From NCBI GenBank assembly GCA_002631855.1, contig NTLF01000017.1:434001-498000 (forward strand): 64,000 nt of DNA. Direction: 5' to 3'. The stretch's first letter is position 1. Each line of letters begins with the position of its first letter. Both the position numbers and the translations under genes were made by a program. Source of the DNA: Zunongwangia sp. ESRF-bin46 (GTDB lineage: Bacteria > Bacteroidota > Bacteroidia > Flavobacteriales > Flavobacteriaceae). Positions 38,580 to 44,125 of this stretch are shown piece by piece. Under the pieces are notes generated by a model, which ran no database searches, was not told where the DNA came from, and worked only from the letters and a program-made list of their open reading frames with translations.

Positions 38580-40994
38580 ATGCAAACAGACCCAAAAACC
38601 AATAGTGACCTTTCCTTTGAAGATTTTAAAGCAGAAGTACTTTCTGATTATAAACTGGCAGTAACAAGCCGTGAATGCAGCCTTCTAGGTCGTCGCGAAG
38701 TGTTAACTGGTAAAGCGAAGTTTGGAATCTTTGGTGATGGTAAAGAAGTTCCACAATTGGCTTGGGCAAAAGCATTTAAAAATGGCGATTGGCGAAGCGG
38801 GTACTACCGTGACCAAACGTTTATGATGGCGATTGGTGAGTTGACAGTTCAACAATTTTTTGCAGGTTTGTACGGGCATTCAGATCTAGATGCAGACCCA
38901 ATGAGCGCTGGACGCCAAATGGGAGGACATTTTGCAACACATAGTTTAAATAAAGACGGAAGCTGGAAAAACTTAACCGCTCAAAAAAACAGTAGTGCCG
39001 ATATTTCGCCAACTGCAGGGCAAATGCCGCGTTTATTGGGATTGGCACAAGCTTCAAAAATTTTCAGAAACGTTAAAGGCATTGAAGATAAAACCAACTT
39101 CTCTATCAACGGAAATGAAGTTGCTTGGGGTACCATTGGTAACGCTAGTACGAGTGAAGGCCTGTTTTGGGAAACTATCAATGCCGCGGGTGTATTGCAA
39201 GTACCTATGGTTGTTAATGTTTGGGATGATGAATACGGTATTTCGGTTCACGCAAAACACCAAACTACTAAAGAGAATATTTCTGAAATATTAAAAGGAT
39301 TTCAACGTACCGAAAATGAAGAAGGTTACGAAATTATCCGTGTGAAAGGATGGAGCTATTCAGAATTAATAGAAGCATATCAAAAAGCAAGTAAAATAGC
39401 TCGTGAAGAGCACGTCCCTGTTTTAATTCACGTGCAAGAATTGACTCAACCACAAGGTCACAGTACTAGTGGTAGTCACGAACGGTATAAAAGCAAAGAA
39501 CGTTTAGAGTGGGAAGCCGAGCACGACTGTAATGTACAGATGCGTAAGTGGATGATTGAAAATGATATCGCTACAGACGAAGAGCTTTCTGAAATAGAAA
39601 AAGTTATCAAAAAAGAAGTTCGTGATGGTAAAAAAGCAGCGTTAAAAGCCTTTTTAGCACCACAAAAGAAAGAACAAAAAGAAGCGGTAACACTTTTAGG
39701 TAACTTAGCCGAAAGCAGCCAGAATAAAAACTTCATTGAAAAAATAAAGAACGATTTAGCTTCTGATACAGAACCACTTCGTAAAACAATATTAGGGGCC
39801 GCGAGAAAATCACTTCGATACGTTACTACTGAAGATTCTTCAGAAAAAAGACAACTAATCGATTGGATTGAAAACTACTACGAGTTAATTCAGCCAAAAT
39901 ACAGCGCTCATTTATATTCTGAAGCAGAAGAGAACGCTAAAACAATTTCCGAAGTAAAACCAGAGTATAATGATGACGTAAAAGATGTTGATGGTCGTGT
40001 GGTACTTCGTGATAATTTTGATGCTATTTTCAGTAAACATCCAGACACGCTAATTTTTGGTGAAGATAGTGGTGAAATTGGTGATGTAAACCAAGGTTTG
40101 GAAGGCATGCAAGAAAAATATGGAGCATTACGAGTTGCCGACGTAGGTATTCGTGAAGCGACTATTTTAGGACAAGGTATCGGGATGGCTATGAGGGGCC
40201 TCCGCCCTATCGCCGAAATCCAGTATTTAGATTATGTGCTGTACTGTCTGCAAATTATGAGTGATGACTTGGTAACACTCCGTTACCGAACGAACGGCAC
40301 GCAAAAAGCACCGCTAATTGTCCGTACAAGAGGACACCGTCTTGAAGGTATTTGGCACAGTGGTTCGCAAATGGGTGGTTTAATTCATCTCTTGCGCGGT
40401 ATGTATGTTTTAGTTCCTAGAAATATGACAAAAGCTGCCGGTTTTTACAATACGTTGTTAGAAACTGACGAACCTGCTTTAATTGTCGAATGTTTAAACG
40501 GCTACCGATTAAAAGAGAAAATGCCTAATAATTTGGGTGAATTCCGCACACCAATTGGTGTAGTTGAAACCATAAAAGAAGGTGAAGATATCACCTTGGT
40601 TTCCTACGGAAGTACACTTCGCGTTGTTGAAGAAGCTGCTAAAGAACTGCAACAAGTTGGTATTAATGCTGAAATTATCGATGTACAATCCTTACTTCCG
40701 CTCGATCTTAATGAGGATATGGTAAAAAGTGTCGCCAAAACTAATAGACTATTAGTGGTAGATGAAGATGTACCGGGAGGTGCTGCTGCATATATTTTAA
40801 ATACCATTGTAGAAAAGCAGAATGGATATCGCCATTTAGATAGCAAACCACAAACGTTGACTGCAAAAGCACACCGTCCAGCGTATGGAACCGATGGTGA
40901 TTATTTCACCAAACCATCTGTAGAAGACGTTTTTGAAAAGGTATATGCCATTATTCACGAAGCAAACCCAGAAGACTTTCCAAAGTTAAGATAG
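38580..40994 (+). CDS. 2-oxoacid dehydrogenase E1, fused alpha and beta subunits
   Basis: 804 residues. The thiamine diphosphate-dependent E1 decarboxylates a branched-chain or related 2-oxo acid and passes the acyl group to lipoyl-E2. Residues 1-390 are the alpha half, about 470-804 the beta half (FGEDSGEIGDVNQG, REATILGQGIG, VDEDVPGGAAAYI). The cofactor motif usually read as GDG...NN is here GNAS...DDE, with N188 and D216-D217 exchanging the usual Asp and Asn. No E2 or E3 gene is adjacent. The 3' end of the gene is duplicated downstream (see repeats). Confidence 0.9.
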   Translation: MQTDPKTNSDLSFEDFKAEVLSDYKLAVTSRECSLLGRREVLTGKAKFGIFGDGKEVPQLAWAKAFKNGDWRSGYYRDQTFMMAIGELTVQQFFAGLYGHSDLDADPMSAGRQMGGHFATHSLNKDGSWKNLTAQKNSSADISPTAGQMPRLLGLAQASKIFRNVKGIEDKTNFSINGNEVAWGTIGNASTSEGLFWETINAAGVLQVPMVVNVWDDEYGISVHAKHQTTKENISEILKGFQRTENEEGYEIIRVKGWSYSELIEAYQKASKIAREEHVPVLIHVQELTQPQGHSTSGSHERYKSKERLEWEAEHDCNVQMRKWMIENDIATDEELSEIEKVIKKEVRDGKKAALKAFLAPQKKEQKEAVTLLGNLAESSQNKNFIEKIKNDLASDTEPLRKTILGAARKSLRYVTTEDSSEKRQLIDWIENYYELIQPKYSAHLYSEAEENAKTISEVKPEYNDDVKDVDGRVVLRDNFDAIFSKHPDTLIFGEDSGEIGDVNQGLEGMQEKYGALRVADVGIREATILGQGIGMAMRGLRPIAEIQYLDYVLYCLQIMSDDLVTLRYRTNGTQKAPLIVRTRGHRLEGIWHSGSQMGGLIHLLRGMYVLVPRNMTKAAGFYNTLLETDEPALIVECLNGYRLKEKMPNNLGEFRTPIGVVETIKEGEDITLVSYGSTLRVVEEAAKELQQVGINAEIIDVQSLLPLDLNEDMVKSVAKTNRLLVVDEDVPGGAAAYILNTIVEKQNGYRHLDSKPQTLTAKAHRPAYGTDGDYFTKPSVEDVFEKVYAIIHEANPEDFPKLR

Positions 40995-41558: not shown

Positions 41559-42083
41559 ATGAAAAACAGTACTTTACTAATTATATTATTACTCTTCTTT
41601 CCTTTCTTTACGAAAGCCCAAGATGTCAATTTATCTCAGCCAACCATTGCTGAATCTGAAGTTCCACAAGCGGTACTAACAAACCAAGACACACTTTTTC
41701 CGGGTGGTTTTATATCAGAGTGGCAGCTTCAAAAGGGGTTTGATGCCGCAGATGATAAAGCCGTACGGTATATTTCAAAATTTGAAGAAGACGGGAATCC
41801 TGGTTCTTCCGCTTCGTATCTAACAGATGGTACATTGATATTTCATTCAGAATATATGGAAGCAGGAACCATCCCTGAAACAGTCCGGTTGAAACTTCAA
41901 TTTGATTACAAAGATTTTGATGTAAAGTATGCCGATTTTATCACGGTTTATTTTCCTGAAAGAGAAATATATCGTGTACATCTTAGGAAAGACACAAGTG
42001 TAAAACATGCTTTTTATGATATAAATGGAAACGAAATCCCAGAAAAAGCACTTCCAATCGAAATAATTTTATTTGACCGTTAA
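41559..42083 (+). CDS. Secreted protein of unknown function
   Basis: 174 residues with a signal peptide (hydrophobic 4-18, ending FTKAQ). The remainder is rich in beta-strand-like segments (VRLKLQFDYKDFDVKYADFITVYFPE) with no motif I recognise. Probably periplasmic or outer-membrane associated. It has its own promoter and precedes the asnB leader by 129 bases. Confidence 0.7.
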   Translation: MKNSTLLIILLLFFPFFTKAQDVNLSQPTIAESEVPQAVLTNQDTLFPGGFISEWQLQKGFDAADDKAVRYISKFEEDGNPGSSASYLTDGTLIFHSEYMEAGTIPETVRLKLQFDYKDFDVKYADFITVYFPEREIYRVHLRKDTSVKHAFYDINGNEIPEKALPIEIILFDR

Positions 42084-42212
42084 GCCTTTATTTTAAAACA
42101 CTTAAAACCGATTTTAATTGCAAAAAACAAAATAATTGATGATTAAAATTTGGAATCCTCGTTTTTTTTATTGAATATTTACAAATAATCATAAAAGACA
42201 AAAACAAGTAGT

Positions 42213-42263
42213 ATGTTACTTTTCAACTTAAATAATAACAATAATAATAACCCGTTGCCGTAG
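42213..42263 (+). CDS. Asparagine-rich attenuator leader peptide of asnB
   Basis: A 17-codon frame, ATG 42213 to TAG 42261-42263, encoding MLLFNLNNNNNNNPLP. Eight of sixteen residues are Asn, seven of them consecutive, using both AAT and AAC. It ends 23 bases before a terminator hairpin and 94 bases before asnB, the gene that makes asparagine. By analogy with trp and his leaders, ribosomes should stall at the Asn run when Asn-tRNA is scarce and free an antiterminator. The sequence is seen directly; the mechanism is inferred. Confidence 0.82.
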   Translation: MLLFNLNNNNNNNPLP

Positions 42264-42267
42264 CAAA

Positions 42268-42297
42268 AACTTGTCGCGATATATAGCCCGTCAGGTT
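42268..42297 (+). promoter_or_regulatory. Candidate antiterminator of the asnB attenuator
   Basis: Bases 42268-42278 (AACTTGTCGCG) can pair with 42287-42297 (CCCGTCAGGTT) at 9 of 11 positions, including one G-U. The second strand is also the left arm of the terminator, so the two structures are mutually exclusive. The six bases ACAAGT at 42204-42209, upstream of the leader ATG, could in turn pair with ACTTGT and block the antiterminator. Confidence 0.65.
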
Positions 42298-42320
42298 TTT
42301 TTAACTTGACGGGTTTTTTT
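42287..42320 (+). terminator. Attenuator terminator before asnB
   Basis: Eleven-base-pair stem (42287-42297 with 42303-42313, one G-U), five-base T loop, then seven T residues. It lies between the leader peptide and asnB on the coding strand, the position expected of a regulated intrinsic terminator. Confidence 0.88.
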
Positions 42321-42357
42321 GTGTTTTAAAACTACTAACCAATAAAATATAGAAATT

Positions 42358-44028
42358 ATGTGTGGAATTGTATGTGCCTTTAAACTAAAAGAACCAGCAG
42401 AAGCCTTGCGCTTGCAGGTATTGTCAATGAGTAAATGTATCCGTCACCGAGGGCCGGACTGGAGTGGTATTTTTGATAATGATAAAGCTATTATGGCCCA
42501 CGAACGTTTAGCAATTGTAGATCCTACTTCAGGAAAACAGCCGCTTTTCAGTAAAGACAAGAAGTTTGTATTGGCTGCCAATGGTGAAATTTATAACCAC
42601 TTAGAACTACGGAAGCAGTTTGAAGGGAAGTATGAATTTCAAACAAAATCTGATTGTGAAGTAATCTTACCCCTCTTCAAAGAAAAAGGAGGCGATTTTT
42701 TAGATGAACTAAACGGAATCTTCGGCTTTGCCATTTATGATGTTGAAAATGATGAGTATTTAATCGCCCGCGACCATATAGGAATCATTCCATTGTATAT
42801 GGGCTGGGACCAAAACGGAACTTTTTATGTTGCTTCAGAATTAAAAGCTTTGGAAGGTATCTGTACAAAAATTGAACTCTTTCCCCCTGGACATTACCTC
42901 TACAGCAAAGAAGGCGAATTAAAAAAATGGTACACCCGCGATTGGATGGAATATGACGCTGTAAAAGACAATGAAACTAGTATTGAAGAATTGCGTGAAG
43001 CTTTAGATGCCGCTGTGCATCGTCAATTAATGAGTGATGTACCATACGGGGTCTTACTTTCCGGCGGACTGGATTCTTCCATTACCTCAGCTGTTGCCAA
43101 AAAATATGCTGATAAACGTATTGAAACCGGTGACAAAGAAAATGCTTGGTATCCAAGGTTACATTCTTTTGCCATTGGTCTGGAAGGAAGCCCAGATCTA
43201 GCTGCCGCTCAAAAAGTAGCCGATCATTTGGATACAGTTCATCACGAAATAAAATTTACCATTCAAGAAGGTATTGATGCGATTCGGGATGTTATTTACC
43301 ATTTAGAAACCTATGATATTACTACTATCCGCGCTTCTACACCTATGTTTTTAATGGCCCGGGCCATCAAAGCATTAGGTATAAAAATGGTGTTGAGTGG
43401 AGAAGGTAGCGATGAGATATTTGGTGGCTATCTATACTTTCACAAAGCACCAAATGGAGAAGAGTTGCATAAAGAAACCGTTAGAAAATTGGATAAGTTA
43501 CACCAGTACGATTGTTTACGAGCCAACAAAAGTTTGGCTGCTTGGGGTATTGAAGGCCGGGTTCCTTTTTTAGATAAAGAGTTTATGGATGTAGCCATGC
43601 GCTTAAACCCAGATGATAAAATGATAAACGGAGAGCGCATGGAAAAATGGGTGCTACGAAAAGCATTTGAAGATATGCTTCCTGAAAGCGTTGCTTGGCG
43701 CCAAAAAGAGCAATTTAGTGATGGTGTGGGATACAGCTGGATTGACACCTTAAAAGAAATGGTTAACGAGAAAGTAAGTGATGAACAAATGGAAAACGCC
43801 CATTTTAAATTTCCTATTCAAACCCCTACCAGTAAAGAAGAGTTTTACTACCGTTCTATCTTTACTGAACATTTTCCAAGTGATACGGCGGCGTTGAGTG
43901 TGCCATCTGTTCCTTCGGTAGCTTGTAGCAGTCCTGCAGCGTTAGAATGGGATGAAAGTTTTAAAAACATGAACGACCCTAGTGGACGGGCTGTTGCAAA
44001 CGTTCATAGTGATGCGTATAGCAAGTAA
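42358..44028 (+). CDS. asnB: Asparagine synthase B (glutamine-hydrolysing)
   Basis: Makes asparagine from aspartate, ATP and glutamine in the cytoplasm. 556 residues, the normal AsnB length. Cys2 of MCGIV is the glutaminase nucleophile; ERLAIVDP, NGEIYNH and SDCEV are in the glutamine domain. The synthetase domain has the ATP-binding SGGLDSS at 235-241 and GEGSDEIFGGY. Expression is probably controlled by the Asn-rich leader upstream, and a strong terminator follows. Confidence 0.97.
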   Translation: MCGIVCAFKLKEPAEALRLQVLSMSKCIRHRGPDWSGIFDNDKAIMAHERLAIVDPTSGKQPLFSKDKKFVLAANGEIYNHLELRKQFEGKYEFQTKSDCEVILPLFKEKGGDFLDELNGIFGFAIYDVENDEYLIARDHIGIIPLYMGWDQNGTFYVASELKALEGICTKIELFPPGHYLYSKEGELKKWYTRDWMEYDAVKDNETSIEELREALDAAVHRQLMSDVPYGVLLSGGLDSSITSAVAKKYADKRIETGDKENAWYPRLHSFAIGLEGSPDLAAAQKVADHLDTVHHEIKFTIQEGIDAIRDVIYHLETYDITTIRASTPMFLMARAIKALGIKMVLSGEGSDEIFGGYLYFHKAPNGEELHKETVRKLDKLHQYDCLRANKSLAAWGIEGRVPFLDKEFMDVAMRLNPDDKMINGERMEKWVLRKAFEDMLPESVAWRQKEQFSDGVGYSWIDTLKEMVNEKVSDEQMENAHFKFPIQTPTSKEEFYYRSIFTEHFPSDTAALSVPSVPSVACSSPAALEWDESFKNMNDPSGRAVANVHSDAYSK

Positions 44029-44094: not shown

Positions 44095-44125
44095 AAACGC
44101 CTCGGTCTCATCGAGGCGTTTTTTT
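44095..44125 (+). terminator. Rho-independent terminator after asnB
   Basis: Ten-base-pair stem (44095-44104 with 44112-44121, AAACGCCTCG / CGAGGCGTTT), seven-base loop, T run. It separates asnB from the QEGLA cassette. Confidence 0.9.

Follow-up and report, generated by a model that had tools for sequence, protein, structure and literature searches.

The gene asnB of the flavobacterium Zunongwangia sp. ESRF-bin46 is very probably controlled by a ribosome-mediated transcription attenuator of the trp/his type that senses the supply of asparaginyl-tRNA (Asn-tRNA). The attenuator lies directly upstream of asnB in a stretch of 64,000 nucleotides (nt) of contig NTLF01000017.1, which is called the window here and whose first letter is position 1. 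An original prediction made from this stretch had proposed that asnB is regulated by attenuation through Asn codons, and the conservation of the leader, the covariation of its helices, and the ribosome positions modelled for the on and off states support the proposal. The locus has the parts of a trp/his-type attenuator, namely an Asn-rich frame, a terminator, an antiterminator (2:3), a strand for the 1:2 pairing, and a gene for making Asn, while the fitting ribosome positions are found in a model only, in which the ribosome has a 29-nt footprint. The parts are as follows.

42204-42209, + strand: segment 1 (ACAAGT), directly 5' of the leader ATG; its partner is segment 2
42213-42263, + strand: leader peptide MLLFNLNNNNNNNPLP, with ATG at 42213, stop codon TAG, and C as the next base
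42265-42276, + strand: segment 2 (AAAAACTTGTCG), the antiterminator strand, one base (C) from the stop codon
42285-42315, + strand: terminator hairpin of 13 pairs, 6 of them G-C, with a T run after it
42286-42300, + strand: segment 3, the 5' arm of the terminator and the T run of its loop, in which CGTCAGGTTTTT (42289-42300) pairs with segment 2
42303-42320, + strand: segment 4, the 3' arm of the terminator AACTTGACGGG (42303-42313) and the U tract; the stem has 13 bp
42358-44028, + strand: asnB, asparagine synthase B (glutamine-hydrolysing), 556 amino acids (aa); NF006949, TIGR01536, PF00733

These elements, and their spacing, can be read directly from the sequence, and most of them agree with the original prediction. 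The frame at 42213-42263 encodes 16 residues with eight Asn, seven of which are in one run (AAT AAT AAC AAT AAT AAT AAC), as had been described, and the gene directly after it is asnB, whose product scored 934.7 bits against NF006949 (asparagine synthase B; cut-off 499). The terminator and its T run were also confirmed, although the stem has 13 pairs instead of the 11 bp given before. The alternative pairing had been drawn between 42268-42278 and 42287-42297, with 9 of 11 positions paired; its register was correct, and the helix is longer by three A-U pairs (42265-42276 with 42289-42300, 11 of 12 pairs). One element, segment 1, was absent from the earlier list: its ACAAGT is complementary to ACTTGT within the antiterminator strand. 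The 121-nt leader folds with z = -4.24 relative to shuffles.

The gene 5' of the leader ends at 42083 and has the same direction as asnB, and the region is AT-rich, which would fit a terminator that belongs to the upstream gene and an Asn frame that is a chance product of AT-rich DNA. However, in 5000 dinucleotide shuffles of the 274 nt upstream of asnB, ATG frames of 8-30 codons contained at least four consecutive Asn once and at least five in 0/5000. We also applied a strict test, which requires a frame that starts with ATG, has 8-40 codons, and contains at least four Asn and at least 19% Asn, and after it a terminator (a stem of at least 7 pairs, a stability of at least 9 kcal/mol (-9), and five T). 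Among the 81 real asnB upstream regions (the best 80 of 588 loci from genome contigs, and the window's own) 21 passed, as compared to 0 of 1620 shuffled ones. An ATG frame of the same length with at least 30% of any one residue, followed by a terminator, was found at this locus alone on both strands of the 64-kb window. Moreover, the upstream gene and the terminator are separated by a conserved frame, and in relatives the combination of leader, terminator, and asnB is kept next to differing upstream genes. On the shuffles, the conserved frame, and the changing neighbour, we rejected the explanation by an upstream-gene terminator and a chance frame, to which we give next to no probability.

Runs of five Asn codons occur in seven separate places in the 3.3-Mb genome (nine overlapping matches). 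Among the other six, one is inside a 1005-aa frame and five belong to open frames of 8-43 aa; inspection by eye showed no ATG-started Asn leader followed by a terminator at any of the six. At one of the loci inspected (L183) a terminator directly follows an Asn run, but this run sits after a stop codon and has no ATG. A covariance model of the leader (R1) gave one strong match in the Zunongwangia genome and six weak ones (21-38 bits), and no Asn leader before any recognisable Asn-metabolism gene was seen at these six.

For the working of the attenuator, we infer the promoter, the ribosome positions, the timing, and the response to asparagine. RNA polymerase would start just upstream and transcribe first segment 1, then the leader frame and segment 2, and finally the 3:4 terminator. 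With ample asparagine, the ribosome would pass the Asn codons, reach the stop codon, and cover segment 2, and the 3:4 terminator would form and leave asnB off. When Asn-tRNA is scarce, the ribosome would halt on the Asn run, where it would tend to keep segment 1 from segment 2. Segment 2 would then be free and would pair with the half of segment 3 on the loop side while segment 4 is still missing, and once 2:3 has formed the polymerase would read into asnB. If the leader is not translated, segment 1 could hold segment 2 and favour the terminator, which would depend on 1:2 forming first. The arrangement may also help the timing, as segment 2 would cover the loop side of segment 3, where hairpin closure starts. 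Only the base of the stem would remain free, and its partner is the last part to be transcribed. For trp, timing and ribosome release at the stop codon have been modelled (PMC1183508). The genome encodes asnS, an asparaginyl-tRNA synthetase (592.8 bits), and no match to AsnA was found in it; thus Asn-tRNA should follow the free asparagine that is made by AsnB.

The leader was collected from 65 loci (40 matches from the family and 25 of the 81 asnB loci, some of them from the same organisms). Sixty-four parse with an ATG and give 51 distinct leaders, while L095 starts with GTG. The original prediction had pointed to conserved Asn codons in relatives as a check, and indeed 342 of the 723 sense codons after the start in the 51 distinct leaders encode Asn, while 12 encode Lys. 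AAT was found 248 times and AAC 94 times, as compared to 5 AAA and 7 AAG, and thus the residue Asn is kept with T or C, and seldom A or G, as the third base. An Asn-rich nascent peptide that arrests the ribosome, with a ligand or general translation stress as the signal, would also keep the amino acid while AAT and AAC vary. However, the peptides share little outside the Asn run and the last residue; their length and most of their residues vary, and the longest Asn run is from 1 to 10 residues long and starts anywhere from codon 2 to codon 11 (codon 7 in 30/51). Furthermore, the product of the regulated enzyme is the very amino acid found in the run, and AsnA, another enzyme with the same product, has different Asn-rich leaders. 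Peptide arrest is therefore a very improbable explanation.

The same variation bears on two other roles for the frame, a trans-acting small protein and an upstream open reading frame that supplies asnB with ribosomes through reinitiation. Reinitiation can be aided by short leader frames close to genes (PMC4833913). In the window, however, the stop codon is 94 nt from asnB with the terminator in between, and the distance from segment 2 to asnB varies from 67 to 178 nt (40 loci), while neither the length nor most residues of a small protein are conserved. We consider these roles even less probable than peptide arrest.

The base 3' of the stop codon is C in 51/51 distinct leaders, and the peptide ends in Pro (38 leaders), Thr (12), or Arg (one). 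Neither the C nor the terminal Pro/Thr is explained by the pairings that we examined. A Pro or Thr before the stop codon and a C after it are contexts of slow termination, and the C (51/51) together with the last Pro/Thr (50/51) might thus slow termination such that the ribosome stays on segment 2 for a sufficient time. The TTG of segment 2 begins 7 nt 3' of the stop codon in 47/51 leaders.

Covariation was judged in two alignments against 500 shuffles. Alignment A1 contains 25 leaders aligned with MAFFT, and A3 contains 53 leaders fitted to the terminator helix and not to the competing 2:3 helix. For the terminator, 97.0% of cells in A1 are standard pairs, 6 of 13 pairs have changed on both sides, and all five measures were beyond all 500 shuffles; in A3, which was fitted to this helix, 96.6% of 624 cells are paired and 10 of 12 pairs show changes on both sides. 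For the 2:3 pairing, 94.9% of cells in A1 are standard pairs with a covariation of 0.152 (0.109 in shuffles), and in A3 91.0% of 580 cells are paired with a covariation of 0.177 (0.129 in shuffles) and 18 cells changed on both sides (5.9 in shuffles). The covariation score of 2:3 was higher than those of all 500 shuffles and of all slid versions of the helix. In columns 89:129 of A3 an A-U pair has become G-C in 12 sequences, possibly by few independent events. Judged from these alignments, covariation is strong for the terminator and moderate for the competing 2:3 pairing. The terminator arms and the competing pairing therefore covary in relatives, where the original prediction had suggested looking for covarying hairpin arms.

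Duplex energies in the 51 leaders point in the same direction. The mean of a leader's own segment 2:segment 3 duplex is -10.72 kcal/mol, as compared to -9.94 for cross-pairs between leaders and -4.33 for shuffled partners, and own duplexes were better on average in 500/500 permutations. For segment 1:segment 2, the own mean is -5.96 kcal/mol, as compared to -5.47 for cross-pairs and -2.33 for a shuffled partner, and 0/500 permutations were as low as the own mean; the relatedness of the leaders weakens both permutation tests. CAAG occurs within 14 nt of the ATG in 35/51 leaders, and segments 1 and 2 have changed jointly in L102 (ACAAGCT with AGCTTGT) and L125 (GCACAAG with CTTGTGC).

The effect of the ribosome was modelled in the state in which segment 3 has been made and segment 4 has not, with the 29-nt footprint and transcription from 42189 assumed. 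In the window, the modelled probability of 2:3 was 0.84-0.99 with the ribosomal A site on any of the Asn codons. On the remaining codons as far as the Leu that precedes the terminal Pro it was 0.98-1.00; on this Pro it fell to 0.48, and on the stop codon to 0.01. Since the probability is equally high on codons other than Asn, it is the position of the Asn codons alone that gives the sense of the switch in the model. Across the 51 leaders, the loop-side half of segment 3 was held with a probability of 0.87 with the ribosome at the first Asn of the run (0.49 with a shuffled segment 2) and 0.40 with the ribosome on the stop codon (shuffled control 0.43), suggesting that the effect of segment 2 vanishes there. 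The probability of 1:2 in the absence of a ribosome was 0.26 before segment 4 is made and 0.90 at full length in the model. Possibly, 1:2 acts as a pause hairpin that couples transcription and translation.

In the sample of 81 asnB loci, the leader is present in 25. The contig names of these loci include Marixanthomonas, Luteirhabdus, Aequorivita, Gilvibacter, Planktosalinus, Cochleicola, Altibacter, and Patiriisocius. The Flavobacterium asnB loci in this sample are without the leader, except for one metagenome-assembled genome labelled Flavobacterium sp. (L010), whose AsnB is within the leader clade. An ATG frame with three consecutive Asn was found in 0/56 leaderless loci and in 23/25 leader loci. 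According to the original prediction, a terminator kept in relatives without the Asn run would speak against attenuation. When the 81 upstream regions were searched for the terminator alone, 24 were found and an Asn-rich frame was present in 24/24; the 25th leader locus, L043, has kept the Asn-rich frame, and its terminator has diverged from the search pattern. Forty further loci, found by a model that contains the leader and thus no independent test of the link between frame and terminator, all carry the Asn frame (39 with ATG, and L095 with GTG).

In a tree of 87 AsnB proteins (the 81 and six outgroup rows), the 25 leader loci form one side of a single branch and need one change, with a support of 86, which is below the starred level; shuffled leader labels needed 22 changes on average. 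R1 gave matches at E <=0.001 in 50 of 397 genomes of the family. Forty matches had at least 67 bits, one each in 40 of the 397 genomes, and 40/40 are before asnB. Eleven weak matches in the family had 42-51 bits, and ten of them were inspected (the remaining one is at a contig edge). Among these ten, L135 proved to be an Asn leader upstream of asnA, and the others look like ordinary terminators, although L137 has a Lys-rich frame. Among 276 genomes of the order, the real matches of R1 were the Zunongwangia genome and G042 only, and the matches in three other genomes of the order had no ATG-started Asn frame. The nearest upstream gene in the 25 leader loci is an E1 dehydrogenase in nine, the 174-aa gene found in the window in eight, and neither in eight. 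This tally takes the nearest long frame, which is not necessarily a gene, and L038 (counted as neither) shows the end of an E1 gene. Since the upstream gene varies while the leader stays before asnB, the element goes with asnB.

In leaderless loci such as L019, L037, L060, and L078, a palindrome like AGTTATAAATTGTAACTA was observed within 180 nt upstream of asnB. At 14 or more of 18 matches it was found in 30/56 leaderless loci, 0/25 leader loci, and 1/56 shuffled sequences, with a consensus that was drawn by eye from the same loci on which it was scored. The palindrome is possibly an operator that the attenuator replaced.

AsnA is the ammonia-dependent asparagine synthetase (aspartate-ammonia ligase) and is not homologous to AsnB. 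We inspected 38 loci upstream of asnA, 37 of which had enough upstream sequence, and the strict Asn leader test was positive in 8/37 loci as compared to 0/740 shuffles. In four of these eight (L135, L150, L168, L171), two leader-plus-terminator units are in tandem. By eye, we added L142 (whose Asn fraction is under the limit of the test) and, in L149, a second unit with a continuing frame; L170 was doubtful. The loci with Asn attenuators before asnA are thus L135, L142, L144, L149, L150, L151, L167, L168, and L171, and the asnA leaders come from family codes f1, f9, f44, f61, and f72. One asnA type has its antiterminator strand inside the frame, where it copies the 3' arm of the terminator: GGAAGGCT pairs with AGCCTTCC in L142 or with AGCCTTTC in L144, GGAAGATT with AGTCTTCC in L150, and GAGAGGCT with AGCCTCTC in L171. 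The GAATAA..TTATTC inverted repeat holds the Asn codons of the first asnA leader in L135, L142 (as GAATA..TATTC), L144, and L150, and it might be a pause hairpin.

Outside the family, one Asn leader before asnB, at L199 (G739), encodes MKTQTHNNNRFFALASR about 160 nt upstream of the gene and also has its antiterminator strand inside the frame. At L194 (G640), directly upstream of asnB, an Asn-rich frame ending in VNSNNNS precedes a strong GC hairpin that lacks a T run, and control may be translational here. No convincing leader was seen at the remaining asnB orthologues among the 29 loci inspected. The asnA units and L199 were scanned with the ribosome model, without a shuffled control and leaving out the first unit of L135 and the second of L149. 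Of the 14 units scored, a clear fall after the Asn codons was seen in seven (both units of L150 and L171, L151, L167, and L199, which is before asnB), a partial or weak fall in five (L142, L144, L149, the first unit of L168, and L170), and none in two (the second unit of L135, which was never on, and that of L168, which was flat).

The weak R1 match at L135, upstream of asnA, scored 42.7 bits. R2, a second model, represents one type of asnA leader and ends in a terminator. It had no match in the Zunongwangia genome; among 267 genomes drawn from the class it was strong for two of its own seeds only, with weak matches in 26 more genomes, some of which resemble leaders of other amino acids. Among the weak R2 matches, L222 has a His-rich frame before a HisG-like gene, and L226 and L235 have Thr/Ile-rich frames before aspartokinase-like genes; these genes were named by the appearance of their sequences. 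In L233 (G820, near a contig end) the frame MNNKAKNILNTINNTMMCCMMCI is followed by a terminator, perhaps as a Met/Cys leader, and the contig ends before a readable gene.

Asn attenuation may therefore have arisen more than once in Bacteroidota. A wider reading, to which we give an even chance, is that it was invented repeatedly in this phylum, in at least three leader types on two non-homologous synthetases, AsnB in one flavobacterial clade and AsnA in five family codes. In this reading the two asnA attenuators in series would give a steeper or two-stage response, the Pro/Thr-stop-C end would be a timer that holds the ribosome over the antiterminator strand, and the attenuator of the clade ancestor may have replaced a palindromic operator that many leaderless lineages have retained before asnB.

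Asparagine genes of Firmicutes are controlled by T-boxes, and a T-box or a metabolite riboswitch for asparagine could be imagined here as well. However, no Rfam family reached its gathering score anywhere in the window, including the known leader families (Trp, His, Leu, Thr, Phe, and others). Rfam matches to 42100-42360 at up to E 10 included no T-box and were unrelated, and a tRNA was the only match in 11 loci chosen for asnA or other asnB leaders. Furthermore, the open reading frame and the 1:2, 2:3, and 3:4 pairings explain the element. A T-box or riboswitch was thus rejected as being without Rfam support, and its probability is about as negligible as that of the upstream-gene terminator.

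Two further features flank the attenuator and asnB.

42150-42181, + strand: putative promoter, with TTG at 42150-42152, a spacer of 21 nt, and AATATTTA at 42174-42181; a weak consensus match
44095-44121, + strand: terminator-like hairpin 3' of asnB, 12 pairs and a T run, from a consensus scan only

The promoter consensus of Bacteroidota is TTG-N19-23-TAnnTTTG. Scores of 8 or 9 to this consensus were found in 18/51 leaders and in 7.7% of shuffles, and ATATTTG or ATATTTA is present 48-24 nt 5' of the leader start in 26/51 leaders. With its own hairpin at the 3' end, asnB is probably transcribed as a single gene. Elsewhere in the window, at 38580-40994, a single 804-aa protein joins E1 alpha-like and E1 beta-like parts of a 2-oxoacid dehydrogenase, with family matches below the curated cut-offs; the E1 dehydrogenase counted next to nine of the 25 leaders is a relative.

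Several observations weigh against attenuation of asnB. In the window, the promoter matches 7 of 9 consensus positions, which was equalled by 49% of shuffled controls, and the start at 42189 is an assumption. The number of 2:3 pairs changed on both sides is only two in A1, reached by 245/500 shuffles, and three in A3, reached by 77/500. Segment 1 is weak in L043 (-2.7 kcal/mol), L121 (-1.5), L124 (-0.5), and L127 (-0.4). Some leaders are poor in Asn: three have three Asn (for example L020/L127 and L018), the shortest of the longest runs are 1, 2, 2, and 2, and L119 encodes MFLNKNSNYQP. The strict test was failed by four of the 25 leader loci (L003, L012, L018, and L020), and 56 of the 81 asnB loci are leaderless, including those named Maribacter, Zobellia, Aquimarina, Zunongwangia, and Gillisia.

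The folding model adds to these points. With a strict on/off cut, 9/51 leaders switch as compared to 15/1020 controls. Once the full terminator has been made, it is the favoured fold at equilibrium wherever the ribosome stands (mean energies in the 51 leaders are -19.2 kcal/mol for the terminator and -10.7 for 2:3), and the switch must therefore work by timing. Moreover, with no ribosome and before segment 4, 2:3 (0.72) beats 1:2 (0.26) in the window model, and segment 3 was held with 0.74 in the 51 leaders (control 0.50), so the folds do not predict that asnB is off when the leader is not translated.

Amino-acid attenuators are textbook regulation. To our knowledge, few worked cases are known in Bacteroidota, one of the main phyla in both sea and gut. 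The asnB leaders provide natural variants with three to ten Asn codons and one point of gain on the tree, and such a system is suited to studying how the sensitivity of attenuation depends on the length of the run, the context of the stop codon, and timing. With the asnA leaders in parallel, some of them in tandem, one could ask about the frequency and ease with which new attenuators evolve. In practical terms, the element might serve as a compact asparagine sensor, and it suggests that further unannotated leader peptides are present in Bacteroidota.

Two known kinds of control, the T-box Asn elements of Firmicutes and the enterobacterial AsnC acting on asnA, regulate asparagine synthetase genes as well. 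A T-box binds tRNA directly, and AsnC is a DNA-binding protein. The asnB leader has no T-box according to Rfam. The asnA attenuators resemble the asnB leader in having an Asn-rich leader and a terminator, but they control AsnA, one type has segment 2 in the frame, and half of the strict positives are tandem.

In the open-access literature, no asparagine attenuator was seen by title or start of abstract among the matches listed. Leader peptides have been considered in Bacteroidota, the phylum of the asnB leader: strong clues for leader-peptide attenuation before amino-acid biosynthesis operons were described in the nearest paper listed, on Flavobacterium psychrophilum (PMC9723704), and leader-like small open reading frames were noted in Bacteroides thetaiotaomicron (PMC7366714). 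The main texts of these two papers do not mention asnB or asparagine. As of 2010, leader peptide systems had to the knowledge of the authors not been shown outside Proteobacteria and Actinobacteria, aside from the atypical ermC, and the His leaders of hisS/hisZ in Bacillus, with a regulatory codon run before a terminator, added a case in Firmicutes (PMC2965389). These leaders differ from the asnB leader in amino acid, phylum, and gene, and in the main text of that paper 'asparagin' does not occur and 'asn' occurs only within a reference.

The closest comparison is with E. coli trpL and Salmonella hisL. Like them, the asnB leader has a peptide in which the product amino acid is abundant, an antiterminator and a terminator that exclude each other, an upstream competitor strand, and a single U-tract terminator before the biosynthetic gene, and it shares the long codon run with hisL. 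It differs from both in its amino acid (Asn), its phylum (Bacteroidota), and its lack of a match to an Rfam leader family. Segment 2 begins one base after the stop codon, unlike in trpL and hisL, and segment 1 lies 5' of the start codon and not in the frame as in E. coli trp. As far as we found, the Asn specificity, the case in Bacteroidota, the location of segment 1 before the start codon, and the asnA leaders are new. By the features examined, and with the above limits of the folds, the mechanism is very probably of the known trp/his kind with a new amino-acid specificity.

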